Source: Pseudomonadota bacterium (GTDB taxonomy: Bacteria; Pseudomonadota; Alphaproteobacteria; Sphingomonadales; Sphingomonadaceae). From it: a DNA stretch of 34,227 nucleotides. Shown here piece by piece: positions 5,990-28,802 of this stretch. The stretch is from NCBI GenBank assembly GCA_018240895.1, contig JAFEEX010000006.1, forward strand, positions 49,308 through 83,534, read 5' to 3'. The notes under the pieces are model-generated. The model was not told the DNA's origin and ran no database searches. It saw only the letters and a list, made by a program, of their open reading frames with translations. Position 1 is the first letter of the stretch. Each line of letters opens with the position of its first letter. The translations under genes and the position numbers were made by a program.

Positions 5990-6176
5990 AGGCAGGGGAC
6001 TAATCATAACTGTTTTAGTAGACAATAGGTCTGCGATGAAGTTTTTGTTTGCTGCGGCGAAGCGAAGAAGAAGCAACCCGACCATCGAGATTCATTGCCG
6101 CCCGTGCGGTGTGCGGCTAGGTATGGCCAAGCCGGGGCAAAGCAACCTCCCGATCAGGCGTCACCGCCCAAGCGTT
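5990..6176. promoter_or_regulatory. Divergent promoter region between DUF2292 and chrA
   Basis: The AT-rich patch 5999-6060 stands out from its surroundings and most likely carries the divergent promoters. An imperfect palindrome with ACTAA/TTAGT arms spans 5999-6019 and may be an operator. I could not assign it to a known regulator family, nor define -35/-10 elements confidently. Confidence 0.35.
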
Positions 6177-6211
6177 GCCTTCACCGTCCGCTCCGCAGCG
6201 GACGGCAAGGC
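6177..6211 (+). promoter_or_regulatory. Long hairpin just before chrA ribosome site
   Basis: CCGTCCGCT (6184-6192) and AGCGGACGG (6197-6205) pair perfectly around a 4-base loop, and outer arms GCCTT/AAGGC (6177-6181, 6207-6211) extend the stem. It ends three bases before GAGG (6214-6217), the ribosome site of the GTG-started chrA gene. No T-run follows, so an effect on translation or mRNA stability is more likely than termination. Confidence 0.6.
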
Positions 6212-6220
6212 GTGAGGTAA

Positions 6221-7537
6221 GTGGTGACAGAGCAAGATATCCAGCCAGACTTTCGTAAACTTGTCCGCGTCTTTGCGCGGATCGGCCTGCTCAGCTTTGG
6301 CGGTCCGGCGGGCCAGATCGCACTCATGCACCGCGAACTGGTCGGAGAGCGCCGATGGATCAGCGAGGACCAATATCTCCACGCGCTGAACTTCTGCCAT
6401 CTGCTGCCCGGTCCCGAGGCGCAGCAACTCGCCACCTGGATCGGGTGGAAACTCCACGGCGTCCGGGGCGGGCTGGCGGCAGGGCTATTGTTCGTTGTTC
6501 CGGGCGCTTTGGTCATTCTCGCGCTGTCGATGATCTATGCCTTCGCCGCAAAACTCGTTTGGTTCGCCGCGCTGTTCCTCGGCATCAAGGCTGCCGTTCT
6601 GGCAATCGTGGTCCAGGCCTTGCTTCGCATTGCTGGCCGCGCGCTTGACACCGGGTTCAAGCAGCTGCTCGCAGCCAGCGCTTTCGTCGCGCTCTTCCTG
6701 CTCGACGCGCCGTTCCCGCTTGTCGTGCTGGGGGCAGGGCTGGTCGGAACCATCGTTGCTTCGGTGCGTCCCGATTGGCTGGCCATCAAGCCATCGCGCC
6801 AGACGCAACCGCATGGACCACGTCCCTGGCGGCAATCGCTGCGCACGATGCTGCTATGGGCCGCAATCTGGGCCGCGCCGCTGGTCCTGGTGCTGGCGAC
6901 GCTCGGTCCGGACCATGTGCTCTGGAAGATCGGCAGTTTCTTCTCGCAGCTGGCCGTGGTGACCTTTGGCGGCGCCTATGCCGTTCTCACTTATATGGCG
7001 CAGGAGGCGGTCCAGGGCTTCGGCTGGCTTTCGGCTGGCGAAATGGCCGATGGCCTAGGCCTTGCGGAAACGACCCCGGGGCCGCTTATCATGGTCACGC
7101 AGTTCGTCGGTTACCTCGCAGCCTTCCGAGCGCCCGAACCTTTCACGCCGACTATCGCGGGAATACTGGGCGCAGCGCTGACCACCTGGGTTACCTTTGC
7201 CCCATGCTTCCTGTGGATCTTCACCTTCGCGCCCTGGATCGAGCGAATGGAACACGCACCGCGCCTCAAGGGCGGCCTCGCGGCGCTTACCGCTTCGGTC
7301 GTCGGGGTCATTGCCAACCTCACGCTCTGGTTCGTGCTGCACGTCCTATTCGCACAGGTGAACGAAGCCCGCTGGGGCCTGGTGCGCCTGCATAACCCCG
7401 AGTGGCCGACCTTCGACTGGCGCGCAGCCGTGCTCGCCGCGATCGCAGCAATCCTGATCTTCCGCCTTCGCTGGAACGTGATTGCCGTGCTTGGGGCGGT
7501 TGGCCTGGGCGGCCTGTTGCTTGGCAGCCTCGCCTGA
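6221..7537 (+). CDS. chrA: ChrA-type chromate transporter
   Basis: A 438-aa member of the CHR family of chromate efflux transporters, inner membrane. The duplicated family layout is clear. The N-terminal half has FARIGLLSFGGPAGQIALMHRE and LPGPEAQQLATWIGWK; the C-terminal half has FSQLAVVTFGGAYAVLTYM and GLAETTPGPLIMVTQFVGY. Full length compares with the usual 390-450 residues. The start is GTG 6221 (or 6224) behind GAGG. It expels chromate, a sulfate analogue, and is divergent from the sulfur-related operon, so both may be linked through oxyanion stress. No chrB regulator is present. Confidence 0.93.
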   Translation: MVTEQDIQPDFRKLVRVFARIGLLSFGGPAGQIALMHRELVGERRWISEDQYLHALNFCHLLPGPEAQQLATWIGWKLHGVRGGLAAGLLFVVPGALVILALSMIYAFAAKLVWFAALFLGIKAAVLAIVVQALLRIAGRALDTGFKQLLAASAFVALFLLDAPFPLVVLGAGLVGTIVASVRPDWLAIKPSRQTQPHGPRPWRQSLRTMLLWAAIWAAPLVLVLATLGPDHVLWKIGSFFSQLAVVTFGGAYAVLTYMAQEAVQGFGWLSAGEMADGLGLAETTPGPLIMVTQFVGYLAAFRAPEPFTPTIAGILGAALTTWVTFAPCFLWIFTFAPWIERMEHAPRLKGGLAALTASVVGVIANLTLWFVLHVLFAQVNEARWGLVRLHNPEWPTFDWRAAVLAAIAAILIFRLRWNVIAVLGAVGLGGLLLGSLA

Positions 7538-8352: not shown

Positions 8353-11247
8353 TTAGAGTCCAAAGTCCATGCTGCGGGTGCGTCCAAGCCCGAGACTGGC
8401 GGTAAGTTCGCGTTCGAGGCTGCGTTCGAGCTTGAGATAGAGGCCAAGCTCGCGGGTGCGCTTGGTGAGGCGCTCGGTGAGCTTCGGATCGCGTTCGAGA
8501 CCCTTGGCCAGCTCGGCCATCTGCTTCGCGATGCCGCGCGCTCCGGCCACATCGCCGCCGCGTTGCAGCGCATCTCGTGCTGCGGCCATCTGGCGCCAGT
8601 CGCTGACGAACCGGTCTGCGCGCTTGCCGGGATCGGCGCGCAATTCAGCTTCGACCTTCATGGCTTGATGCGCGCCTTGTGAGCGCCCGGCAGCGGCCTC
8701 GACAGCCAGGTCCGGCGCACGGTCGAACGCCCTGGCGAGATCGGCAGCGCCATTGGGTTGCAGCATTTCAAGTGCCTTGCCAGCGCGTTCCAGGGTCTCA
8801 TTCTGGTGCGGCAAAATCGAAAGGCCGCGCGCCTCCATCTGCACCGCGTCGATGTGCGCCCGGGCGTAACGCTCGATCGCCCGAAGCTGCGAGTTGGCTG
8901 CGGAACCGGGGTCTGGGATTGCCTCGAGCTTGCTCTTGCCCGGCCGGAACCCGTCGAAGATACCGCGCACCTTGGCCGGAATCTGCCGCACCAATTCGGC
9001 GTCCTTCTCGCGGAAGGTAATCCCGCGCCGTTCGGCAAAGTCGCGGGCCGGATCGCGCTCGCCATAGTCGCTCGCCATGTCCTTGGCACGCTCCCGGCCA
9101 AGGACCCGAACGAGCTTCAACTGGTCGGCAAAGTCGTCTCGGCCGTAGTGCAGATCGACCTGCTCGCGGTGCCGCGAGAGCGCGACATAGGCTCCGTGGC
9201 TGTCCATGCCCGGCGTTGCCAGGAGATGGGTGCGATCGACCGTTACCCCTTGCGCCTTGTGGATCGTCGCGGCGTAGCCGTGGTCGAAATGGGCATAGTC
9301 CCTGCTGTCGAAGCCGACCTTGCGTCCGTCGTCGGTGCGCACCGCAATGCGCCCCGCCTTGATCGCGTCGATAGTCGCGAGCGTCCCGTTCTTGATCCCC
9401 AGGCTGCGCTCGTTGCGCAGGAACATCAGTCGGTCGCCCGAAGCGAACTGGCGTTCGCCGCGCTCGGTCCTGATCTCGACATCGGAACCCAGTTGACCCG
9501 CCAAACGCAGCCGTTCGCGCGCCATCGCGTTGAGTGCGCGCACCTCGTCGTTGGTATGCGTGAGGATGATCCGGCTTGTCGCCGGATCGCCCTGCCGGTC
9601 GCTGTCCCAGCGGGCGACAAGCGCCTCGCGCGCGCCCTCACGAGAAGCCTCGGCATGGACCATGCCATTCTCGGCATAGGCCCCGATCGCTTCCCCGGTG
9701 CGACCGGTCGCGAGGTGCCGCGTGGCATCGCGCTGCCAGTCGGCCTGCTGGCGGCGAATCTCGGTGATCTCGACCCCGCCGTGGCGCTGGTGAAGCGCGC
9801 GGAACGCAGCCCCGGCCTCGATCGCCTGGAGCTGCTGCGGGTCGCCGACCAGCACGACCTTGGATCCTGCTTCGGCGGCGCGGCTGAGCACGCGCCCCAT
9901 CTGCCTGGTGCCGACCATCCCTGCTTCGTCGATGACCAGGACATCGCGCGGACCCAGGAGGTCGCGGCCTTGGTTCCACTGGTATTCGAGGCTGGCAAGG
10001 GTGCGCGAGGCGATCCCCGAACCGTTCTCGAGGTTCTCGGCGGCGATCCCCGAAAGCGCCGTGCCGCGCACAGTGTAGCCAGCGCCTTCCCAGGCTTCGC
10101 GCGCCACGCCGAGCATCGCGCTCTTGCCGGTTCCGGCATAGCCGATGACGATCGCCAGACCCGTGCTGCTGGTGACATGCTCGAAGGCAGCGCGCTGTTC
10201 CCCGGAGAGCAGCAACCCGCGTTCTTCGGCTCGGGCAATTGCCCGTTCGACATGGCGCTCAGCTACGCTATGTCGGTCCCGTCCAGCCAAGGCATCACCG
10301 GCCCGATCGAGCCGCTGCTCGGTCTCGATCATGCCTCGCGAGGTGTAGCGCTCAGCGCCCCGGCCATCCTTGCCGAGCGCGACCAGTTCGGGGGCATGGC
10401 GCACGGCATCGAGCGCGGCATCGAACTGCTCCTTGCCATCGCTGTGGCGGTGGATGAACGCCGCAAGATCGCGTGCGGTAAAGGTCGCCTGTTGGTGCGT
10501 GATCGCATCGAGCGCGAGCGCGGGATTGGCGATAATTCTTGTCCCGTTCCGCTGTGCAATCGCGCGGTGTTCCTCGATCCGATCGGCCTCCAATCCGCGT
10601 GTGCCGATCCGCGATGCGGCGGGGCCGATCTTGTCTTGCGGTTCGAGCGCGATGCCCTGCTCGGCGAGGCTGCGGTGATCGATCCGAGCATCGATATCGA
10701 GTTCTGCCAGTCGCTGATTGACATGCTCGGCCCAGCGCTCGCGCCACTGCTCGATCAGCTCGGAGCGGTTCCAGTCGCGAACCTTGGCACCGAACCCATC
10801 GGGGCCAACTTCGCGCATGGTCAGCATGACATGAGCGTGCGGCTTGGGCTTGCCGTCCTCGCCAATATCCCAATGGACATTGAGGTCGGCGATCATCCCT
10901 TCGGCGACGAACTCGGCCTCGACGAATTCGCGGGCAAGCTCGATTGCCTCTTCCTTGCTGAGCTCGCGGGGGAGGGCGAATTCGACCTCGCGGGCAAGCT
11001 GCGCGTCCTTGCGCTTCTCGGCCTTCTCGACCGCGTTCCACAGCCGCTCGCGGTCGGCAAACTCGGCGGGCGCGCCTTCGGGCAGTAGCACTTCGGAATG
11101 AACGACCCCGGCCTTGTCGGTGAAGTCGTGGGCGCGGTCGATCCGCTCATCCTGGAGCTTCTCACCGGCGCGATAGGCAGCCGCCGCGACCGAACTGCGC
11201 CCGCTCGACCGGCCGATGACTTTCGCGCTGAAGTGGAAGATCGCCAT
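8353..11247 (-). CDS. traA: Ti-type relaxase/helicase TraA (MobQ)
   Basis: A 964-aa conjugative relaxase-helicase that nicks and unwinds DNA at oriT. The N-terminal MobA/MobL relaxase domain has the opening MAIFHFSAKVIGRSSGRS, an active-site-type Tyr in AAAAYRAGE, and the metal-binding His pair in KPHAHVMLTMREV (~residue 134). The helicase part has Walker A GYAGTGKSAM (~370), Walker B VLVIDEAGMVG (~437), then VGDPQQLQAIE and the late GYAATIHKAQGVTVD and VALSRHREQV motifs. A second ATG three codons earlier (11256) is possible, but homologues start at MAIxHFS. It is divergent from traC/traD with the predicted oriT between. It is slightly shorter than Ti TraA (~1100 aa), but all motifs are intact. 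Confidence 0.93.
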   Translation of the reverse strand: MAIFHFSAKVIGRSSGRSSVAAAAYRAGEKLQDERIDRAHDFTDKAGVVHSEVLLPEGAPAEFADRERLWNAVEKAEKRKDAQLAREVEFALPRELSKEEAIELAREFVEAEFVAEGMIADLNVHWDIGEDGKPKPHAHVMLTMREVGPDGFGAKVRDWNRSELIEQWRERWAEHVNQRLAELDIDARIDHRSLAEQGIALEPQDKIGPAASRIGTRGLEADRIEEHRAIAQRNGTRIIANPALALDAITHQQATFTARDLAAFIHRHSDGKEQFDAALDAVRHAPELVALGKDGRGAERYTSRGMIETEQRLDRAGDALAGRDRHSVAERHVERAIARAEERGLLLSGEQRAAFEHVTSSTGLAIVIGYAGTGKSAMLGVAREAWEGAGYTVRGTALSGIAAENLENGSGIASRTLASLEYQWNQGRDLLGPRDVLVIDEAGMVGTRQMGRVLSRAAEAGSKVVLVGDPQQLQAIEAGAAFRALHQRHGGVEITEIRRQQADWQRDATRHLATGRTGEAIGAYAENGMVHAEASREGAREALVARWDSDRQGDPATSRIILTHTNDEVRALNAMARERLRLAGQLGSDVEIRTERGERQFASGDRLMFLRNERSLGIKNGTLATIDAIKAGRIAVRTDDGRKVGFDSRDYAHFDHGYAATIHKAQGVTVDRTHLLATPGMDSHGAYVALSRHREQVDLHYGRDDFADQLKLVRVLGRERAKDMASDYGERDPARDFAERRGITFREKDAELVRQIPAKVRGIFDGFRPGKSKLEAIPDPGSAANSQLRAIERYARAHIDAVQMEARGLSILPHQNETLERAGKALEMLQPNGAADLARAFDRAPDLAVEAAAGRSQGAHQAMKVEAELRADPGKRADRFVSDWRQMAAARDALQRGGDVAGARGIAKQMAELAKGLERDPKLTERLTKRTRELGLYLKLERSLERELTASLGLGRTRSMDFGL

Positions 11248-11276
11248 GATGGCCATCCAGTTACGCCATCAAAGCC

Positions 11277-19216: not shown

Positions 19217-19261
19217 AAAAAAGGCCGCCTCGAACCGTTCGATTGGAACGGTACGGGCGGC
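19217..19261 (-). terminator. Intrinsic terminator in nirB leader
   Basis: On the minus strand GCCGCC (19261-19256) pairs with GGCGGC (19229-19224), and inside ACCGTTC pairs with GAACGGT. A run of six T (19222-19217) follows after one C. It lies about 40 bases before the nirB start and overlaps the ANTAR P2 hairpin. Confidence 0.88.
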
Positions 19262-19321
19262 TTCGTTGCCACGCGTTGGTAAAGTTGTGCGACCGGGTGC
19301 TGGATCGCCCTTCATTGGGCG
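19217..19321 (-). promoter_or_regulatory. ANTAR (NasT) antitermination leader of nirB operon
   Basis: Read on the minus strand, hairpin P1 has stem CGCCC/GGGCG (19321-19317, 19310-19306) with hexaloop AATGAA. Then 33 bases, then P2 with stem GTGGC/GCCGC (19272-19268, 19261-19257) and hexaloop AACGAA. Both loops have A1 and G4, the known ANTAR target rule. The 3' arm of P2 is the 5' arm of the terminator, so the two are mutually exclusive. NasT encoded at 25268-25846 is the expected binder: with nitrate present it is released by NasS, stabilises P1-P2 and lets transcription reach nirB. Confidence 0.85.
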
Positions 19322-19376
19322 GCACGACCTTTCGCTTGGGCAAGACTAGGTGATTCGGCAGCGGGATGGCAAGCGG

Positions 19377-19395
19377 TTTTTGCAGTGCAGCAAAA
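19377..19395 (-). promoter_or_regulatory. Conserved box upstream of nirB leader
   Basis: The plus-strand 16-mer TTTTTGCAGTGCAGCA (19377-19392) is repeated exactly at 24037-24052 upstream of the second leader. It sits 56 bases before P1 here, 55 bases there. With following bases it forms an imperfect palindrome TTTTGC-N6-GCAAAA. It lies in the 3' flank of the porin gene, so nirB probably has its own promoter here. I cannot fit it to a sigma-54 or NtrC consensus. Confidence 0.6.
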
Positions 19396-20795: not shown

Positions 20796-22049
20796 TCAGA
20801 TGCGGGCGCCCTGCAGCGCCGCGCCCCAAGTGGTGCGCCACTTGGCCTTGACCGCGGTCAGCCCGACCAGCGCGACCACGGCCAGCGCGGCAAAGATCAG
20901 GAAGCCGATCGAGGCCGAACCGGTGGCCTTCTTGATCGCGCCGAGCGAGCTGGCGAGGTAGAACCCGCCCAGACCGCCGCCAAACCCGACCAGCCCGGTC
21001 ATCACGCCGATTTCCTTGCGGAAGCGCTGCGGTACCAGCTGGAACACCGCGCCGTTGCCAATCCCCAGCGTGCCCATCACCGCGACGAACAGGGCAATCG
21101 CGAGCGCCAGGCCCGAAGTTGCGGCAAAGGCGATTACCGTCAGCAGGATCGCGGCGACGATGTAGACGGCGGTAAGCGTCTTGATCCCGCCCATCCGGTC
21201 GGCCAGCGCGCCGCCGACCGGGCGCAGCAGCGAACCCATGAACACCGCGGCGGCGGTGCAGTAACCGGCCACCACCGGGGTCACCTTGAAGGTGTCGGCA
21301 AAGAAGGTCGGCAGCGAGCCCGACAGGCCGACGAAGCCGCCGAAGGTGACGAAGTAGAACAGCATGAACCACCAGGCGTCCGCTTCCTTGAGCACGGCGG
21401 CATAGGCGGCCATCGGTTTGGGTTCAGGCTGCTCGGGGCTGTCCTTGGCAGCGACTAGGTAGAACGCAAAGACCGCGACCAGCGGGATCAGCGCCAGGCC
21501 GAACACGTTGGTCCAGCCATAGGCCTTGGCCAGCAGCGCGGCGAACAGCGCGGCGAAGACCGTGCCGGAATTGCCCATGCCGGCAATGCCCATCGCCTTG
21601 CCCTGGTGTTCGGGCGGATACCAGCGGCTGGCCAAAGGCAGCGAGACGGCAAAGCTGGCCCCGGCAAAACCCAGCACGACGCCAACCGCGAGTGTCGCTT
21701 CGTAGCTGTGGACGCCGAATTTCCACGCGGCAAGCAGCCCGCCGATCACGACCACCTGGTTGATGATACCGGTCACCTTGGGACCAATTCGGTCAACCAT
21801 GAACCCGTTGATGAGCCGGATTACCGCGCCCGCCAGCGTCGGGACGGCGACCATGAAGCCCTTTTGCGCCGGGTCGAGCCCGAGGTCCTTCGAAATGATC
21901 GGGGCAAGCGGCCCCAGCATCACCCAGCACATGAAGGCGATGTCGAAATAGAGGAACGCGGCGATCAGCGTCGGGCGGTGGCCCGATTGCCAGAACGATT
22001 TGCCGACCGGAATTGTGGGTGCATCGGATGTCATCGCAAGTGTAGCCAT
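20796..22049 (-). CDS. narK: NarK/NasA-type nitrate/nitrite transporter (MFS)
   Basis: A 417-aa major-facilitator transporter of the nitrate-nitrite porter family in the inner membrane. Family marks: FDIAFMCWVMLGPLAP in the first helix, LPLASRWYPPEHQGKAMGIAG, and both nitrate-signature Gly-Asn segments, AGMGNSGTVFAALFA and LGIGNGAVFQLVPQ. About 12 membrane segments. ATG 22049 has a perfect AGGAGGG seven bases upstream; the longer frame beyond it would run into the divergent kinase gene. It brings nitrate in for NasA. It has no ANTAR leader of its own directly upstream; the nearest one lies 1.8 kb upstream beyond the oppositely oriented kinase gene. Confidence 0.94.
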   Translation of the reverse strand: MATLAMTSDAPTIPVGKSFWQSGHRPTLIAAFLYFDIAFMCWVMLGPLAPIISKDLGLDPAQKGFMVAVPTLAGAVIRLINGFMVDRIGPKVTGIINQVVVIGGLLAAWKFGVHSYEATLAVGVVLGFAGASFAVSLPLASRWYPPEHQGKAMGIAGMGNSGTVFAALFAALLAKAYGWTNVFGLALIPLVAVFAFYLVAAKDSPEQPEPKPMAAYAAVLKEADAWWFMLFYFVTFGGFVGLSGSLPTFFADTFKVTPVVAGYCTAAAVFMGSLLRPVGGALADRMGGIKTLTAVYIVAAILLTVIAFAATSGLALAIALFVAVMGTLGIGNGAVFQLVPQRFRKEIGVMTGLVGFGGGLGGFYLASSLGAIKKATGSASIGFLIFAALAVVALVGLTAVKAKWRTTWGAALQGARI

Positions 22050-22093
22050 GATTTGGCCCTCCTGAGGCTTGACGGAACGGGTTTGGAAACGAT

Positions 22094-22130
22094 CCTCACG
22101 CGGGCGGGCGGCGCGCCCGCATGCGTGAGG
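22094..22130. promoter_or_regulatory. Hairpin between divergent narK and kinase genes
   Basis: CCTCACGC (22094-22101) pairs with GCGTGAGG (22123-22130), and GGGC/GCCC continue the stem past a 4-base bulge. The whole narK-kinase gap is only 95 bases, so this structure must overlap the promoter or leader of one or both genes. As DNA it could be a shared operator; as RNA it ends 14 bases before the kinase ATG. Confidence 0.55.
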
Positions 22131-22144
22131 GGTGACGGGAAACG

Positions 22145-23836
22145 ATGCGCAGCGAAGGCCAACTGGTGGTGGCGGCAGGCTTTGCGAGCCTGATCGGGAC
22201 ACGCGCGGAAAATCAGGATTTCGGCGCCGTCCACACCGGCACCGCGCTGGAACAGACCCGCCACGGGATCATCGCTGCGGTGGCGGACGGGGTGTCGGGC
22301 GGCAAGGCGGGACGGGCCGCGGCCGAACTTGCGGTGCGGGCGCTGATCGAGGGGTTCTATGCCATGCCCGACACGCTGGGCCCGGCCCGCGCGATGCAGG
22401 TTCCGCTCGCCGCCTACAACCGCTGGCTGCACAGCCAGGGGCGGGGCGAGATCATGACCAACAGCGCATCGACCTTCACCGCTTTCGCGCTGCGCGGACG
22501 GCGCGCGCATCTGGTCCATGTCGGTGATAGCCGCGCCTGGCGCTTTTCCGGCGGCCGTTTGACCTGCCTGACCACCGATCACGTCCGCCCCGAACCCGAT
22601 CTCAGCCACGTGCTGATCCGCGCGCTGGGGATCGAGCCCGAATTGCGGCTGGATCACGGCGATCTGGAACTGGCCGAACACGACCGTCTGCTGCTGACCA
22701 GCGACGGGGTTCACGCGGTCCTCAATCCTGCGAAGATCGCCGCAATCCTGGGCGAAAATGCCAGCGCCGAAGCGACTGCCGAACGCCTTGTCGAAGCCGC
22801 GATCGACGCCGGTGGCAAGGACAACGCCACCGCGCTGGTGCTCGACGTGGTGCGCCTCCCGGCCCCCGATCACGACGGGATCCTGGCCGGACTTTCGGCC
22901 CTGCCGTTCGTCGATCCCCCACGGCCGGGCGAGAGCATCGACGGCTTCAGGGCGGAACGCGTCCTGTCCGAAGGACGTCACGCGGTGCTGCTGGTGGCGA
23001 CCGACGGCGAAGACGGCAGTAAGGTAGTGATCAAGTTTCCCCGCCGCGAGGTGCTGTCCGAGCGCGCGCTGCGACTGGCTTTTGCCCGGGAAATGCTGCT
23101 CGCGCAGCGGGTTACCAGCCCGTTCGTGCTGGGCGCCCATCCGGTCAGGCCCGATCGCCAGACCGCGCTTTACGGCGTCCAGCCGTTCCTTGACGGCGAG
23201 ACCATGGCCCAGCGCATGGAACGCGGCTTGCCGGCGCTGAAATCCGGGCTGGACGCCGCGATCAAGCTGGTGCGCGCTGTGGCCGCACTCCACCGGCTCG
23301 ACGTGATCCACCGCGACATCAAGCCTGACAATGCGATCCTGACAACGGACGGCGGGCTCAAGCTGATCGACCTGGGGGTCGCCCGCCTGCCGCGGGTCGA
23401 AGATTTCCGGGTCGACGAGATTCCCGGAACTCCGGGTTTCATGGCGCCCGAACAGTTCGAGGGGAACGCTGGGGACGAACTGACCGATCAGTTCGCGCTG
23501 GGGGTCACGCTGTACCGCTGGTTCACCGGCAAATGGCCCTATGGCGAGCAGGAGGCTTTCCAGCGTCCCCGCTTCGGCAAGGCCCCGGCTCCGTCCACGC
23601 ACCGCCCGGAAATTCCGAGCTGGCTCGACGATGCGATCCTGACCGCGCTCCAGTCCGACCGCGACGCGCGCTTCGGCGATGTCATCGGCCTGCTCCGGGC
23701 GCTGGAGGGCGGAGGCTCGCTGGACCTCGGCAAGCGCCGCAATCTGCCCTTGATCGAGCGCGACCCGGTGCGTTTCTGGCAGGTGCTCAGCGCGCTGCTG
23801 GCTGCGGGCCTGCTGGCCTCGCTGTTGCTGCGCTGA
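22145..23836 (+). CDS. PP2C phosphatase-Ser/Thr kinase fusion with membrane tail
   Basis: A 563-aa bifunctional signalling protein. Residues ~10-240 are a PP2C phosphatase: GTRAENQDFG, AVADGVSGGKAGRAA, HVGDSRAWRF, LLTSDGVH and GGKDNATAL keep the metal-binding Asp residues. Residues ~270-535 are a Hanks-type kinase: VVIKFP (Lys), HRDIKPDN (~389), LIDLGVARL (DLG for DFG), GTPGFMAPEQF. The glycine-rich loop is weak. One C-terminal membrane helix (LSALLAAGLLASLLLR) anchors it. Such fusions recur in nitrate loci, perhaps tuning transporter or reductase activity; targets unknown. It is the only plus-strand gene of the locus, divergent from narK, with an ANTAR leader pointing into its 3' end. Confidence 0.92.
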   Translation: MRSEGQLVVAAGFASLIGTRAENQDFGAVHTGTALEQTRHGIIAAVADGVSGGKAGRAAAELAVRALIEGFYAMPDTLGPARAMQVPLAAYNRWLHSQGRGEIMTNSASTFTAFALRGRRAHLVHVGDSRAWRFSGGRLTCLTTDHVRPEPDLSHVLIRALGIEPELRLDHGDLELAEHDRLLLTSDGVHAVLNPAKIAAILGENASAEATAERLVEAAIDAGGKDNATALVLDVVRLPAPDHDGILAGLSALPFVDPPRPGESIDGFRAERVLSEGRHAVLLVATDGEDGSKVVIKFPRREVLSERALRLAFAREMLLAQRVTSPFVLGAHPVRPDRQTALYGVQPFLDGETMAQRMERGLPALKSGLDAAIKLVRAVAALHRLDVIHRDIKPDNAILTTDGGLKLIDLGVARLPRVEDFRVDEIPGTPGFMAPEQFEGNAGDELTDQFALGVTLYRWFTGKWPYGEQEAFQRPRFGKAPAPSTHRPEIPSWLDDAILTALQSDRDARFGDVIGLLRALEGGGSLDLGKRRNLPLIERDPVRFWQVLSALLAAGLLASLLLR

Positions 23837-23854
23837 ACGGGTCTGTTGCACCTT

Positions 23855-23871
23855 CGAAGCCCCCTGCTTCG
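23855..23871 (+). terminator. Weak hairpin after kinase gene
   Basis: CGAAGC (23855-23860) pairs with GCTTCG (23866-23871) about 18 bases after the kinase stop. There is no T-run on the plus strand, so it is at best a weak terminator. It lies just beyond the T-run of the opposing leader terminator. Confidence 0.3.
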
Positions 23872-23878
23872 CGCACGC

Positions 23879-23923
23879 AAAAAAGCCGCCATGAACGATC
23901 CGGGCTGGATCGGTTCAGGCGGC
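23879..23923 (-). terminator. Intrinsic terminator of the second ANTAR leader
   Basis: On the minus strand GCCGCC (23923-23918) pairs with GGCGGC (23890-23885). TGAAC/GTTCA and GATCC/GGATC extend the stem with single-base bulges, and six T (23884-23879) follow directly. It is a strong intrinsic terminator facing the 3' end of the kinase gene. Confidence 0.88.
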
Positions 23924-23982
23924 GCCGTTGCCACGCAATGTCAGTTTTCAGCCAACTGCCGGGTTCGCGCCGCCAATGGCGC
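23879..23982 (-). promoter_or_regulatory. Second ANTAR (NasT) antitermination leader
   Basis: On the minus strand P1 has stem GCGCC/GGCGC (23982-23978, 23971-23967) with hexaloop ATTGGC. After 32 bases, P2 has stem GTGGC/GCCGC (23934-23930, 23923-23919) with hexaloop AACGGC. Both loops have A1 and G4. The P2 3' arm doubles as the terminator 5' arm, exactly as in the nirB leader. The leader starts 80 bases after the nasS stop. Downstream in this direction is the antisense of the kinase gene, then narK. It must therefore gate either an antisense transcript or long read-through into narK. Confidence 0.82.
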
Positions 23983-24036
23983 CGGGTCTTGTGGCTTGTC
24001 TATGGATAAGCGATTCGTGGGGCGCAGGTAAAGTGC

Positions 24037-24056
24037 TTTTTGCAGTGCAGCACAAA
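24037..24056 (-). promoter_or_regulatory. Conserved box upstream of second ANTAR leader
   Basis: The 16-mer TTTTTGCAGTGCAGCA (24037-24052) is identical to the box upstream of the nirB leader. It lies in the short gap right after nasS, so a minus-strand promoter separate from the nasTS promoter is likely here. Confidence 0.6.
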
Positions 24057-24062
24057 ACGCGC

Positions 24063-25268
24063 TCAGGGCAGGCGGGCGAGATAGCCTGTCAGGTCGTGCG
24101 GATCGAAGCTCAGCCCGTCGAAGAATCGGTTGCTTTCCAGTGTCATCACCCCCTGCTGGGTGCCGACCGGGGTCGGACCGGCAAGGCTGCCCTCGACCTT
24201 GGAGCTGGCCCCCGGCAGCGGTTCGGCGCTGCCCAGCAGGGCGCTGCGATAGACGTCGGGACGAAACACGCCGGCCACCTTGCCCGCCTCCTCCGCCACG
24301 ATTGGCGTCCTTTCCCACCGCGCCATCTGCGAATAGAGCCACTCGGCCTGGCTGACCCAGGGGAAGTTGGCCGCCTCGCGGTACTGGAACATGAAGTCGG
24401 CATAGTGGATCGGGGCGCTGCCACGCTCGAGCGTCAGTCGGTCGGCGATCGCACGGCGGATCAGTTCGGCCGACCCGTCGAGGTATTCCGGGCGGGCGAG
24501 GATGGCCGCGTTGGCATCCCAGTTACCTGGATCGACGAAGTGGCGCGCGGCGGCGATCAGTGCGCGGATCAGGGCCTCGACATCGCCGCGCCGTTCCTCC
24601 AGCCGTGCCTCGCGCAGGGCGAGCACCTTTTCCACCCCGCGGCGCCAGATCTGCGCGGTCGCCAGCACGATCCGCCCGGCCCCGCGCTCTACCGCGACCG
24701 AGTTCCACGGTTCGCCCACACAGATCCCGTCGACCTCGCCCGCGTCGAGCGCATCGGCGCAGAACGGCGGGGCGACCGTGACAATCTCGACGTCGTGATC
24801 GGGCCGGATGCCGCTTGCCGCCAGCCAGTAGCGTAACATGTAGTTGTGGCTCGAATAGCGATGGACCACCCCAAAGCGCAGCCGCTTGCCCTCGCTTGCG
24901 CGCATCTTGACCACGGCCCCCAGCGCGGTGCCGACAATACGGGGGTCGCCCAATCGGCCGGGTTTGCAGACCAGATCGGCCAATTCCTGGCGCAGCGTGA
25001 CGGCATTGCCGTTAAGCCCCAGCACGAAGGGGACCGACAACGGCTGCGCCGGGCGGCCGCGCCCCAGGGTGGTGGCGATAGCCAGCGGCGCGATGAGATG
25101 CGCGGCATCGGAATGGCCATAGAGCAGGCGGTCCAGCACCGTCGCCCAGCTCATGTCCCGGACCAGCGACAGCGACAGCCCTTCGGCTTCGGCAAAGCCG
25201 TGCTCGCGCGCCAGGATCGGCAGGCAGGCATCGACCAGGGGCAGGAACCCGATCGTCAGTTCGGCCAT
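24063..25268 (-). CDS. nasS: Nitrate/nitrite sensor NasS
   Basis: A 401-aa protein of the NrtA/NMT1-like solute-binding fold, without a signal peptide, starting MAELTIGFLPLVDACLPILAREHGFAEAEGLSLSLVRD. Further family blocks are FVLGLNGNAVTLRQELADLV, HRYSSHNYMLRYWLAASGI, and DGICVGEPWNS. The lack of an export signal and the pairing with NasT show it is the cytoplasmic sensor NasS rather than a transporter component. Known role in the family: it holds NasT inactive until nitrate or nitrite binds. Its ATG shares a base with the nasT stop (TGATG), so the two are translationally coupled and probably made in a fixed ratio. Confidence 0.92.
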   Translation of the reverse strand: MAELTIGFLPLVDACLPILAREHGFAEAEGLSLSLVRDMSWATVLDRLLYGHSDAAHLIAPLAIATTLGRGRPAQPLSVPFVLGLNGNAVTLRQELADLVCKPGRLGDPRIVGTALGAVVKMRASEGKRLRFGVVHRYSSHNYMLRYWLAASGIRPDHDVEIVTVAPPFCADALDAGEVDGICVGEPWNSVAVERGAGRIVLATAQIWRRGVEKVLALREARLEERRGDVEALIRALIAAARHFVDPGNWDANAAILARPEYLDGSAELIRRAIADRLTLERGSAPIHYADFMFQYREAANFPWVSQAEWLYSQMARWERTPIVAEEAGKVAGVFRPDVYRSALLGSAEPLPGASSKVEGSLAGPTPVGTQQGVMTLESNRFFDGLSFDPHDLTGYLARLP

Positions 25269-25846
25269 CAGGCGCCTCCCATCAGCTTGTGGGCCGTGAC
25301 CACCGCTTCGGCGATCTCGGCAATGCGTCGGCCCTGGTTCATCGCCGTCTTGCGCAGTTCGGCATAGGCTTCGGGCTCGGTGATCCTGCGGCTGTCCATC
25401 AGGATCCGCTTGGCCCGGTCGACGGCGTCGCGCTCGGCCAGTTTGCCCTGCGCTTCGGCAAGATCGGTCTGCAGACGGGCAAAGGCATTGAACCGCCTGA
25501 CTGCCAGATCGAGAATCGGGCGAATGCGGTGCGGTGCCAGACCATCGACCACATAGGACGAGACCCCCGCATCGATCGAAGCCGCCAGCGCCGCTTCATC
25601 GGACTGGTCGACGAACATTGCGATCGGCCGGGCCACCGCGCGGCTCACGGCGAAGTATTCCTCGAGCACGTCGCGCGAAGGATTTCCCAGGTCGATCAGG
25701 ACGATATCGGGCGCAATCTTTTCGATCCGGGCGACCAGCCCGTTGCGCTGGGTCAGGACGAAGATCTCGCAATCGTCGAACGCAGCGAGCCCTTCATGGA
25801 TCACTGCCGCACGCGAGGCGCTTTCATCGACGATCGCAATGCGCAT
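25268..25846 (-). CDS. nasT: ANTAR-domain antiterminator NasT
   Basis: A 192-aa RNA-binding antiterminator. The N-terminal receiver-like domain begins MRIAIVDESASRAAVIHEGL and has DIVLIDLGNP; the C-terminal ANTAR domain is AKRILMDSRRITEPEAYAELRKTAMNQGRRIAEIAEAVV. ATG 25846 has AAGG at good spacing and gives the usual NasT length; an ATG ten codons earlier (25876) lacks a ribosome site. Its RNA targets are visible in the same locus: two leaders with A1/G4 hexaloop pairs (19257-19321 and 23919-23982). It is regulated by protein-protein contact with NasS. Confidence 0.94.
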   Translation of the reverse strand: MRIAIVDESASRAAVIHEGLAAFDDCEIFVLTQRNGLVARIEKIAPDIVLIDLGNPSRDVLEEYFAVSRAVARPIAMFVDQSDEAALAASIDAGVSSYVVDGLAPHRIRPILDLAVRRFNAFARLQTDLAEAQGKLAERDAVDRAKRILMDSRRITEPEAYAELRKTAMNQGRRIAEIAEAVVTAHKLMGGA

Positions 25847-25959
25847 CGATGCCTTGTGCAGCGCGTCATGCTGCATTGCAATATGGATTTGGCGGAGACG
25901 AGGATCATGCCCGCGAAACTGACTATTGTGGTCAGGCTCTTATCCGTTGGTAAATCCCG

Positions 25960-25997: not shown

Positions 25998-26630
25998 TCA
26001 GATGTCAGTTCGCTCAGAAAGCGTCAGGGCGTCATCGACGTCCACGCCGAGATATCTCACAGTATTCTCGATGTTGGTATGACCGAGCAAAATCTGCACT
26101 GCTCGGAGGTTTCCCGTCGCCTTGTAAATCAACGATGCCTTGGTCCGTCGCATCGAATGTGTTCCGTATTCGCGGACATCGAGACCGATCATTGCGACCC
26201 ACTCGTCCACTAGACGAGCATACTGCCTGGTGCTGAGGTGGCCCAGATAGTCGATCCGGCTTGGAAACAGAAAGTCGAGGATCGAACCGCCCCGACGCTC
26301 AAGCCATGCTTCAAGGCTCCGCCGCGCCTCGGACATGATCTCGAATTGAACCGGGCGACCAGTTTTTTGCTGAATCACCGTCGCCCGGTTGCGGATCTGG
26401 CCGCCACTTACCACGTCACCGATCCTTATCTTGACGAGATCGCAGCCCCGCAACTTGCTATCGATGGCAAGATCGAACAGCGCCCGATCACGCAACCGCT
26501 TGTGCTCGTCGAGGTAGAATCGGATGGCCCAAATATCACGACGCCTGAGCGGGCGCTTTGGCCCTACATGCTGTCCAGCGTTCCATGGCCGCCGTACATG
26601 GACGGCAGGGTCAAGGTCTGAATATCCCAT
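25998..26630 (-). CDS. Short tyrosine recombinase
   Basis: A 210-aa tyrosine-type site-specific recombinase comprising little more than the catalytic domain. Catalytic residues are all present: Arg in DSKLRGCDLVKIRI, Lys in VIQQKTGRPVQFE, HSMRR (HxxR) in THSMRRTKAS, and His plus the nucleophile Tyr in LLGHTNIENTVRYLG. It belongs to the ~200-aa family with an N-terminal RRPWNxGxxVGxKxPL stretch that recurs in many proteobacterial genomes. Unlike the P4-type integrase next door it lacks an arm-binding domain, so it probably acts on simple core sites. Its natural target is unknown. Confidence 0.9.
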   Translation of the reverse strand: MGYSDLDPAVHVRRPWNAGQHVGPKRPLRRRDIWAIRFYLDEHKRLRDRALFDLAIDSKLRGCDLVKIRIGDVVSGGQIRNRATVIQQKTGRPVQFEIMSEARRSLEAWLERRGGSILDFLFPSRIDYLGHLSTRQYARLVDEWVAMIGLDVREYGTHSMRRTKASLIYKATGNLRAVQILLGHTNIENTVRYLGVDVDDALTLSERTDI

Positions 26631-27005: not shown

Positions 27006-27233
27006 GTGTCCCACTCCGAACGCATCATCCGCCTGAAAACCGTACTCGCCCGCACCGGGCTTTCCCGCTCCACCGTATATCGCAAGATCGCCGAAGGGAC
27101 GTTCCCGCCTCAGGTGCGCATCAGCATCCACGGTGCTGGCTGGCATGAGTCATCAATCGATACCTGGATTGCCGATCCTGCGGCCTATCGATTTGTTTCG
27201 AAGCCTGTGAGCGGTGATCACGTCCTGGCGTGA
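27006..27233 (+). CDS. AlpA-family DNA-binding protein (probable excisionase/regulator)
   Basis: A 75-aa AlpA/MerR-like helix-turn-helix protein: RIIRLKTVLARTGLSRSTVYRKIAEGTFPPQVRIS then GWHESSIDTWIAD is the full family signature. AlpA-type proteins control P4-type integrases or act as directionality factors. The start is uncertain. GTG 27006 fits the family length with GGA nearby; the strong AGGAGGGG at 26966-26973 instead points to an in-frame CTG at 26982. Its 3' end overlaps the convergent integrase 3' end by 16 bases. Confidence 0.85.
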   Translation: MSHSERIIRLKTVLARTGLSRSTVYRKIAEGTFPPQVRISIHGAGWHESSIDTWIADPAAYRFVSKPVSGDHVLA

Positions 27234-28456
27234 TCGCCGTTCAGGCCCTTGCGCTCCGCCTTGTCGAGATAGTCTGACCACCAGTGCATCATGTCCCGGC
27301 GCTGGGTGAGGTAGCGTGCCGAGTTGTAAGCGGCGCGCACCCCGCGCTGGACATGGGCGAGCTGCATTTCGATCCAGTCGGATTCGAACAGGCCGGACTC
27401 GTTGAGCACGGTGCTGGCAAGGCCGCGGAAGCCGTGGACCGTGGCCTTACCGCGCAGACCGATGCGATACATCACGTCGAGCATCCGGTTCTCACTGATC
27501 GTCCCGGTCTTGCTACTGGCGACAGGGAACAGGAACTTGCCGTACAGCTCGTTCCCCGCCTGGCGATAGGCATTGGCGGCATCGATCTCCTCAAGCAGGC
27601 GGACTGCCTGCGGTGAGAGGGGTACGATATGCTCTGTACGCATCTTCATCCTGTGGGCCGGGATCCGCCAGATCGGGTTGTCGGTGCTGAGGCCCTCGAA
27701 CTCGCTCCATTCGGCAAAGCGGGTTTCTTGTGTGCGGACCATTGTGTGGATGGTCCAGCGCAGCGCTAGATGGCTCATCGGTTCGGCCTGGTCGCGGCTG
27801 AGCCCGGCAAAGAATGCCGGTAGGTCCCGCGCCTCAACCTTGGCCCGATGCTGGACTGGCGGCGGCTTCTTCATCGCCGGGCCAATGTCGCGGCTCGGAT
27901 CGCTGCGGCAAAGTTCCATGGCGATCGCGAAGCGGAACACTTCACTGCAATAGTTGCGGACGCGGTGCGCCATCTCGATCGAACCGCGCGCCTCGATCTT
28001 GCGCAGCGCAGCCAGGAGCATCGGCGGATCGATCGCGGTGATCGGCTTGCTGCCAAGCGCCGGGAAGATGTCCTCGCGCAGCCGGGTTTCGACCACGCGG
28101 GCATAGCGCGGCGACCATGCGCAGCGCCGCGCCTCGATCCAATCGTTGGTAACTTCCTCGAAAGTGTTGGTAGTTGCCTCGATCAGAGCGCGCTTGGTCG
28201 CCTTGCGCACCTCGCTGGGATCGCGCCCCGCGAGAAGTTCGAGCTTCGCATCGTCACGCCATTTGCGGGCATCTGCCAGCTTTACAAGCGGATAGGGGCC
28301 TCCGGAGAGCAGCTTTTGCTTGCCCAGGAATCGGTAGGCCAGCCGCCAGTGCTTCTTTCCCTCGGGTGTGACCAGAATGAAGAGGCCGCCGCCGTCCGCC
28401 TTCTTTGTCGGACGATCTCCAGGCCTCAGGGCACGAATGGCTGTGTCGGTGAGCAT
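27218..28456 (-). CDS. P4-type tyrosine integrase
   Basis: A 412-aa integrase of the P4/CP4-57 type that inserts elements at tRNA 3' ends. The N-terminal DUF4102-like domain reads MLTDTAIRALRPGDRPTKKADGGGL with LSGGPYPLVKLADARK; the catalytic domain has Arg in MVRTQETRFAEWSEF, VHGFRGLAST (HxxR), His in MQLAHVQRGV and Tyr in AAYNSARYLTQR. It is intact. It lies about 170 bases from the tRNA-Pro attachment site, with its start facing the tRNA, as is usual for this class. It is the enzyme expected to use the 28-bp repeats. An inverted repeat spans its start codon region. Confidence 0.95.
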   Translation of the reverse strand: MLTDTAIRALRPGDRPTKKADGGGLFILVTPEGKKHWRLAYRFLGKQKLLSGGPYPLVKLADARKWRDDAKLELLAGRDPSEVRKATKRALIEATTNTFEEVTNDWIEARRCAWSPRYARVVETRLREDIFPALGSKPITAIDPPMLLAALRKIEARGSIEMAHRVRNYCSEVFRFAIAMELCRSDPSRDIGPAMKKPPPVQHRAKVEARDLPAFFAGLSRDQAEPMSHLALRWTIHTMVRTQETRFAEWSEFEGLSTDNPIWRIPAHRMKMRTEHIVPLSPQAVRLLEEIDAANAYRQAGNELYGKFLFPVASSKTGTISENRMLDVMYRIGLRGKATVHGFRGLASTVLNESGLFESDWIEMQLAHVQRGVRAAYNSARYLTQRRDMMHWWSDYLDKAERKGLNGDHART

Positions 28457-28623: not shown

Positions 28624-28706
<83 letters not shown>

Positions 28707-28725: not shown

Positions 28726-28802
28726 TGGTGGGCCCGGCAGGACTCGAACCCGCGACCTAGCCGTTATGAGCGGCCAGCTCTAACCAACTGAGCTACAGGC
28801 CC
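28726..28802 (-). tRNA. tRNA with CAT anticodon (Ile2 or elongator Met)
   Basis: On the minus strand the acceptor is GGGCCTG/CGGGCCC with encoded CCA. Anticodon stem GGCCG/CGGCT has loop CTCATAA, so the anticodon is CAT. The 5' GGGCCTGTAGCTCAG and overall body resemble lysidine-modified tRNA-Ile2 of alphaproteobacteria more than initiator tRNA; elongator Met cannot be excluded without comparison. It lies 19 bases upstream of tRNA-Pro, probably co-transcribed. Confidence 0.88.

Follow-up and report, generated by a model that had tools for sequence, protein, structure and literature searches.

A putative NasT-controlled leader facing a reversed phosphatase/kinase gene, and avoidance of stop codons on the antisense strand of that gene, in nitrate gene clusters of sphingomonads

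How might an RNA leader of the kind controlled by the antiterminator NasT serve a transporter gene when an entire gene of opposite orientation lies between the two? The question arises from a window of 34,227 nucleotides (the whole stretch of DNA analysed, from contig JAFEEX010000006.1 of the Sphingomonadaceae assembly GCA_018240895.1), in which the minus strand reads nasT, nasS, leader 2, a gene on the opposite strand, narK, a porin-like gene, leader 1, nirB, nirD and nasA. The ANTAR antiterminator gene nasT (25268..25876, minus strand; Pfam ANTAR, E 1.9e-17) holds the single ANTAR match found by a search of the window's genome, which is 89% complete. It adjoins nasS (24063..25268, minus strand; Pfam NMT1_2, E 3e-63), the putative nitrate/nitrite sensor partner, named by analogy with the NasS-NasT pair described in the available text of PMC3795266. 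The opposite-strand gene, here termed KIN (22145..23836, plus strand), encodes, according to Pfam (Pkinase, PP2C_2) and its kinase motifs, a fusion of PP2C phosphatase and Ser/Thr kinase; three kinase motifs are kept in all 36 KIN loci, window included, and one PP2C pattern is matched in 31 of them. The proposed target of leader 2, narK (20796..22049, minus strand), has its own ribosome-binding site and encodes a nitrate/nitrite MFS transporter (MFS_1), with 286.9 bits against TIGR00886, under the cut-off of 311.7.

The surroundings of the cluster were also annotated. A phage-type integrase recognised by Pfam (25998-26630), a relaxase-like gene (8353-11256) and a second integrase-like gene (27218-28456), the last two identified by eye, flank the nitrate cluster near tRNA genes at 1778-1850, 28633-28706 and 28729-28802, which suggests that the cluster may reside on an integrative element. 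A chrB-b RNA (6132-6178, plus strand; Rfam RF03086) lies directly upstream of a gene at 6221-7537 that is chromate transporter-like by appearance, a guessed name.

Leader 2 occupies 23879-23985 of the minus strand, between nasS and KIN, and is aimed at the 3' end of KIN. It comprises hairpin P1 (23967..23982; stem GCGCC/GGCGC, loop ATTGGC), the antiterminator hairpin P2 (23919..23934; stem GTGGC/GCCGC, loop AACGGC) and an intrinsic terminator (23879..23923) built of a hairpin at 23923-23885 and a T6 tract at 23884-23879. The terminator includes the 3' arm of P2 (GCCGC) in its own 5' arm, so that the two structures are mutually exclusive. ANTAR targets are described, in the portion of PMC3369931 dealing with EutV, as two hairpins with hexaloops bearing A at position 1 and G at position 4, and both loops of leader 2 have these bases in the window; position 1 of the P1 loop is G in place of A in several relatives. 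By these features leader 2 is a dual-hairpin/terminator leader of the ANTAR type, to which NasT would bind.

Methods that look at one sequence at a time respond weakly to this leader: it is absent from the output of a plain terminator scan of the window, no leader family reached the gathering score in an Rfam search, and its low folding energy stands out only mildly (z -1.74, against z -4.80 for leader 1). The evidence beyond chance is therefore comparative. An alignment of leaders from 25 of the 36 loci facing KIN was made, the others being omitted because they had no automatic leader (L010, L015), a mis-set P1 (L005) or a divergent sequence (L186, L196, L198, L204, L205, L207, L215 and L217). 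In this alignment 39 cells, all of them within P1, carried changes in both partners of a pair, where shuffles gave 14.7 and 0 of 500 reached that height. The covariation score was 0.356, slid structures scoring 0.05-0.10; pairs with double-sided change numbered 5, much as in the shuffles (4.6). P2 never varies among the 25 leaders and is hence silent on covariation. A covariance model built from the alignment, R1, gave two strong matches in the 3.17-Mb genome of the window, namely leader 2 itself, which belongs to the training set (E 1.1e-20), and leader 1 (19218..19324, minus strand; E 1.3e-17), which lies outside it and is the usual NasT leader upstream of nirB; three weaker genome matches had E 0.015-0.095. 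The P1-P2-terminator leader with loops ATTGGC and AACGGC, reported earlier on the minus strand opposite the end of KIN, is confirmed by its coordinates, its loops and this comparative evidence.

A putative promoter for leader 2 (24004..24052, minus strand) consists of the box TGCTGCACTGCAAAAA at 24052-24037, TTTACC at 24033-24028 and TTATCC at 24009-24004; a promoter scan of the window returned nothing on either strand. The box recurs directly past the nasS stop in most aligned relatives, and exact TGCTGCACTGCAAAAA is found at only 2 places in the genome, upstream of leader 2 (24037-24052, minus strand) and of leader 1 (19377-19392, minus strand). A near copy with 2 mismatches lies reversed at the start of nasT (25869-25884, plus strand). 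The nitrate genes may share this box as a regulator site, and a sigma-54/NtrC site is one conceivable reading of it.

Gene order among relatives was surveyed in two collections. The named-genome scan kept 80 loci of 295 relatives, of which 58 (L024-L081; kinase identity 35% or less) were dropped as not orthologous, and duplicates (L140/L083, equal to L006, and L153/L084, equal to L013) were left out of the final counts. All 22 named relatives (L002-L023; 70-87% identity), which include Novosphingobium, Chakrabartia, Croceibacterium and sphingomonad or pseudomonadotal metagenome-assembled genomes, have KIN between narK and nasS and in head-to-head orientation to narK; Novosphingobium capsulatum NBRC 12533 (L020) and N. 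nitrogenifigens DSM 19370 (L023) both have the reversed arrangement. Within the window's family, KIN (E <= 1e-120, at least 50% identity) was found in 22 of 397 genomes, and it is head-to-head with narK in all 20 that have narK in view, window included, two further KIN genes lying at contig ends without narK there. The order around KIN, which the earlier note had singled out as a check, is in this way conserved, with the reversed gene placed between leader/nasS and narK. The other possibility raised there, that KIN had inverted within an older order of leader, kinase and narK, is unsupported as a recent event, the reversed orientation being present in many genera, and no codirectional order of leader, KIN and narK occurs among the loci examined.

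A leader facing KIN was found by script in 34 of the 36 loci (with P1 mis-set in L005) and by eye in L010 and L015. In L015 the T tract of this leader is broken (TTCTCT), and an nrtA-like gene past narK is preceded by another leader (L015 6336-6428); constitutive read-through is possible in this locus. In one locus of another family (L238), KIN is reversed between nasS and narK with the end of nasS at the KIN stop and no leader between.

To which genes the leader belongs can be judged from loci where KIN is missing. NasT was present in 95 of 298 family genomes, at 97 places, and among 79 fetched stretches nasS was followed by reversed KIN before narK in 14 (two of which, L149 and L150, have a porin between nasS and KIN), by narK in 23 (one of them, in L211, only 26% identical), by an nrtA-like gene in 29, by a porin in 8 and by another or unreadable gene in 5. 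An automatic leader candidate stands between nasS and narK in 21 of the 23 loci and between nasS and nrtA in 24 of the 29, mostly with the same box directly past the nasS stop. Conversely, the leader-KIN unit occurs without adjacent nasTS in four genomes (L161, L266, L267 and L268), with narK in view in the first three and the unit at a contig end in L268; the terminator calls in L267 and L268 were made by eye. On this distribution the leader would go with the transporter and not with nasTS. ANTAR-binding small RNAs of ethanolamine systems soak up ANTAR protein, and the terminated leader could likewise be a decoy for NasT with incidental read-through, a reading consistent with its putative own promoter, its short terminated product and its position near nasTS. 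We regard it as very improbable, considering that relatives have the same leader immediately upstream of narK or nrtA, and that it accompanies KIN away from nasTS too.

On a NasS tree of 99 rows the KIN-reversed class is scattered, and supported branches force at least 9 gains or losses, in a sample where 22 rows had been picked via KIN, so that the reversed class is over-represented, and L238 was counted in that class. The scatter suggests that the arrangement is old, has been exchanged, or both. It would also suit a relic, in which KIN was recently inverted or inserted and leader 2 is now useless; retention of the leader, the promoter box and the openness of the antisense frame across many genera makes such a relic scarcely credible.

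The frame in question is the antisense frame aligned with the codons of KIN, where a stop arises wherever KIN has TTA, CTA or TCA. Taken by itself, the window's open antisense frame would carry no weight, since no more than about 1.7 stops are expected there. Across 36 distinct KIN genes, these codons account for 1 of 3099 Leu and Ser codons, and in the neighbour genes for 251 of 13538 (p 1.7e-21). Neighbour codon usage would lead one to expect 54.5 of them in KIN, and as every other neighbour-rare codon in KIN stands at 0.68-1.58 of expectation, the deficit is not one of general codon bias. A set of 18 spread representatives yielded 1 of 1505 against 123 of 7451 in neighbours (p 4e-9). For six further loci the prediction was written beforehand, and 0 of 509 Leu and Ser codons were of this kind against 27 of 1531 in neighbours (p 5e-4); L089, L090 and L096 among them had been partly fetched and mapped earlier, their codons being uncounted until the prediction. 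Neighbour genes were taken as the control since, according to the accessible text of PMC7457138, long antisense ORFs in genomes are commoner than codon make-up predicts. Their codon usage replaced a synonymous-shuffle null, which could tell nothing, since rearranging the codons that a gene has never yields those that it lacks.

The 13 codirectional KIN paralogues carry 17 such codons among 1174 (p 3.6e-9 against KIN), individually 0-2 with several having none, and these paralogues are themselves rather poor in TTA, CTA and TCA when set against 488 of 21831 (p 0.08). A share of the deficit may accordingly be a trait of these kinases at large, which would not cover the fall to 1 in 3099. Kinase relatives from other families, with KIN and narK codirectional, had antisense stops at 4 of 93 (L237) and 8 of 92 (L239), as their neighbour genes did too; L238, with 0 of 91 in KIN and 1 of 416 in its neighbours, is made uninformative by its codon usage. 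The sole antisense stop among the 36 KIN genes, a CTA codon in L021, comes after 188 codons, one third of the way in, and this locus is a draft metagenome contig. The avoidance of stops along the whole antisense strand of KIN is a further point against a NasT decoy.

The window's antisense frame, asORF (22031..23851, minus strand), has 606 codons, starts with GTG 27 nt past the T tract of leader 2, spans all of KIN and stops 19 nt inside narK. The possibility that it is a true overlapping gene with a functional protein gains from the fact that the frame is open across the entire KIN in 35 of the 36 loci and that an in-frame start codon lies between leader and KIN end in all 36, at 6-78 nt before the KIN stop (15 or 18 nt in 24 of them). 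The ribosome-binding sites upstream of asORF surpass shuffles only slightly (mean duplex -6.2 against -5.2 kcal/mol). The four-fold sites of KIN, which are the first positions of antisense codons, nevertheless diverge over the whole gene like those of its neighbours (253 pairs of 23 loci: 0.477 against 0.413-0.508, median ratio 1.05); no reduction that would mark purifying selection on antisense amino acids was found, and hence no antisense protein sequence seems to be kept. Local dips in four-fold divergence do occur (0.37 at codons 151-180 and 0.40 at 541-570, against 0.47 overall) and would favour a protein, which however has no Pfam match at E <= 1. A comparison of antisense amino-acid identity with shuffled codons (0.497 against 0.425, 12 loci) was set aside, as the shuffling also removes shared ancestry. 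An overlapping gene is thus held to be quite improbable, and it is the absence of stops in the antisense frame, not a protein, that seems to be under selection.

The asORF stop falls within -3..+4 nt of the script-set narK start in 21 of 36 loci, against a mean of 9.5 and a maximum of 15 in 200 runs with shuffled gaps, where overlaps also appear because many narK genes begin with ATGA. The script-set start is upstream of the likely start in some loci, and by eye L023, L171, L196, L198 and L205 also show a stop/start overlap, bringing the hand count, made with no shuffle control, to 26 of 36. Among the six further loci, 4 could be judged, and in all 4 the asORF stop overlaps narK as ATGA (by eye). 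In L149, L150 and L271 a porin gene lies between leader and KIN, with the leader upstream of it; here the stop of the porin gene shares bases with the ATG of asORF (TGATG), and asORF in turn stops within the narK start (ATGA), so to all appearance the antisense frame is wired like a member of an operon.

Such chaining bears on whether transcription of narK comes from a promoter of its own within the gap of about 95 bp, leader 2 producing only an antisense RNA that silences KIN under nitrate. A narK promoter may indeed lie within the 22050-22145 gap: the narK strand has GGATC-N16-CGTC, exact in 20 of 36 loci, and CGTCAA stands 23-25 nt upstream of the narK ATG in most listed loci. The same bases read TTGACG-N16-GATCCT on the KIN strand (22069..22096, plus strand), GTCAA being present in 34 of the 36 gaps, and the motif is taken as a putative KIN promoter because CGTCAA is missing from the 110 nt upstream of narK in all 23 loci lacking KIN. 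Moreover, a mere silencer would need no stop-free frame up to the narK start, and the chained stop/start overlaps would be pointless; we therefore judge an independent narK promoter with a purely silencing leader unlikely. A near-perfect inverted repeat, CCTCACGC..GCGTGAGG (22094..22130), lies between the KIN and narK starts, and its form is kept in many relatives.

Taken together, we consider it probable that the locus is a NasT-gated noncontiguous operon combined with an excludon, in which antitermination at leader 2 would lead through a translated antisense stretch over KIN into narK. Leader 2 would be the NasT-controlled leader of the nitrate transporter, and in this lineage the reversed KIN lies between that leader and narK. 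When nitrate is lacking, NasT would be held by NasS, transcription would terminate at 23879 and KIN would be made from its own promoter. When nitrate is present, NasT would stabilise P1 and P2, the terminator would not form, and RNA polymerase would run about 1.8 kb antisense to KIN into narK. Untranslated (naked) antisense RNA is a target of Rho. With a frame free of stops from past the leader to the narK start, ribosomes could follow the polymerase, the likely benefit being escape from Rho-dependent termination together with coupling to narK. Expression of KIN and of narK would go in opposite senses, so that the locus would be an excludon nested in a noncontiguous operon. Read-through across the whole of KIN into narK, as suggested in the earlier note, is strongly supported by the conserved order, by the leader directly before narK or nrtA elsewhere and by the stop-free frame ending near the narK start; this support concerns the arrangement, while the transcript, its translation and the repression of KIN that would follow are predictions drawn from it. 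Points that weigh on the other side are the modest ribosome-binding sites of asORF and the separate one of narK, the stop/start overlaps that shuffled gaps also yield, the paucity of the three codons in codirectional paralogues, the stop in L021, the leaders of L015 and the gap motif that could serve narK.

We also lean, with less assurance, towards a broader proposition: that bacteria can keep one antisense frame free of stops, without any amino-acid demand, solely so that ribosomes carry the polymerase through a reversed gene to the operon's following gene, a translated antisense track that nitrate would here switch on by way of NasT. If true, avoidance of stop codons on the antisense strand would let genuine antisense transcription be recognised in genomes and would provide a test for functional antisense transcription that needs nothing but sequence. 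It would make plain how a reversed gene can be part of an operon where Rho should end an untranslated antisense RNA, and it would link the PP2C/kinase with nitrate assimilation, as the transporter's opposite. Given the signal of stop avoidance, named Novosphingobium strains offer a defined locus at which the function of long antisense transcripts can be put to the test.

A search of open-licence literature on NasT/ANTAR leaders, excludons, noncontiguous operons, antisense RNA and Rho, and Novosphingobium nasT gave no report of this arrangement among the matches listed (at most 25 for a topic, out of as many as 1,425), judged by title and opening of the abstract, and no open-licence paper was found linking nitrate assimilation, protein kinase, narK, nasT and nirB. 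The following comparisons draw on excerpts of the cited papers. In Paracoccus, NasS-NasT control of the nasA leader involves the same regulator pair and leader type as here; that leader precedes its gene in sense, with no antisense arm found in the text at hand, whereas transcription from leader 2 would cross KIN in antisense (PMC3795266). The pop frame antisense to ompA is likewise a long open frame embedded opposite a gene, but is proposed to code for a protein (PMC7103648), whereas the antisense amino acids of KIN show no constraint beyond KIN's own.

Antisense-acting riboswitches appear to be the nearest conditional antisense switches, being conditional RNA switches that, like leader 2, face the 3' end of an opposite-strand gene (PMC9943018). 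They bind metabolites, whereas leader 2 would be the target of a protein antiterminator, and the excerpts of that source contain no report of a selected open antisense frame. The excludon of Listeria has a long 5' region antisense to a divergent neighbour, as described in PMC7154746, and the same geometry is found at KIN and narK, as far as nucleotide order tells; here the long region is placed under an ANTAR terminator and is apparently translated. The nearest known kind, going by the excerpts of PMC7154746, is the noncontiguous operon menE-menC-MW1733-ytkD-MW1731 of Staphylococcus aureus, where an operon transcript similarly crosses an internal gene on the opposite strand and mutual exclusion is expected. 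The conserved order with opposite-strand KIN agrees with this kind, and the avoidance of stops in one antisense frame of KIN speaks for translation, cotranscription and translation alike being deduced from sequence only. The internal antisense stretch of the S. aureus operon is described as untranslated, a trait that may not be essential to the kind, whereas that of the KIN locus is kept without stops and in many loci runs into narK through a stop/start overlap, and, unlike in S. aureus, entry into it would be gated by a NasT leader (PMC7154746).
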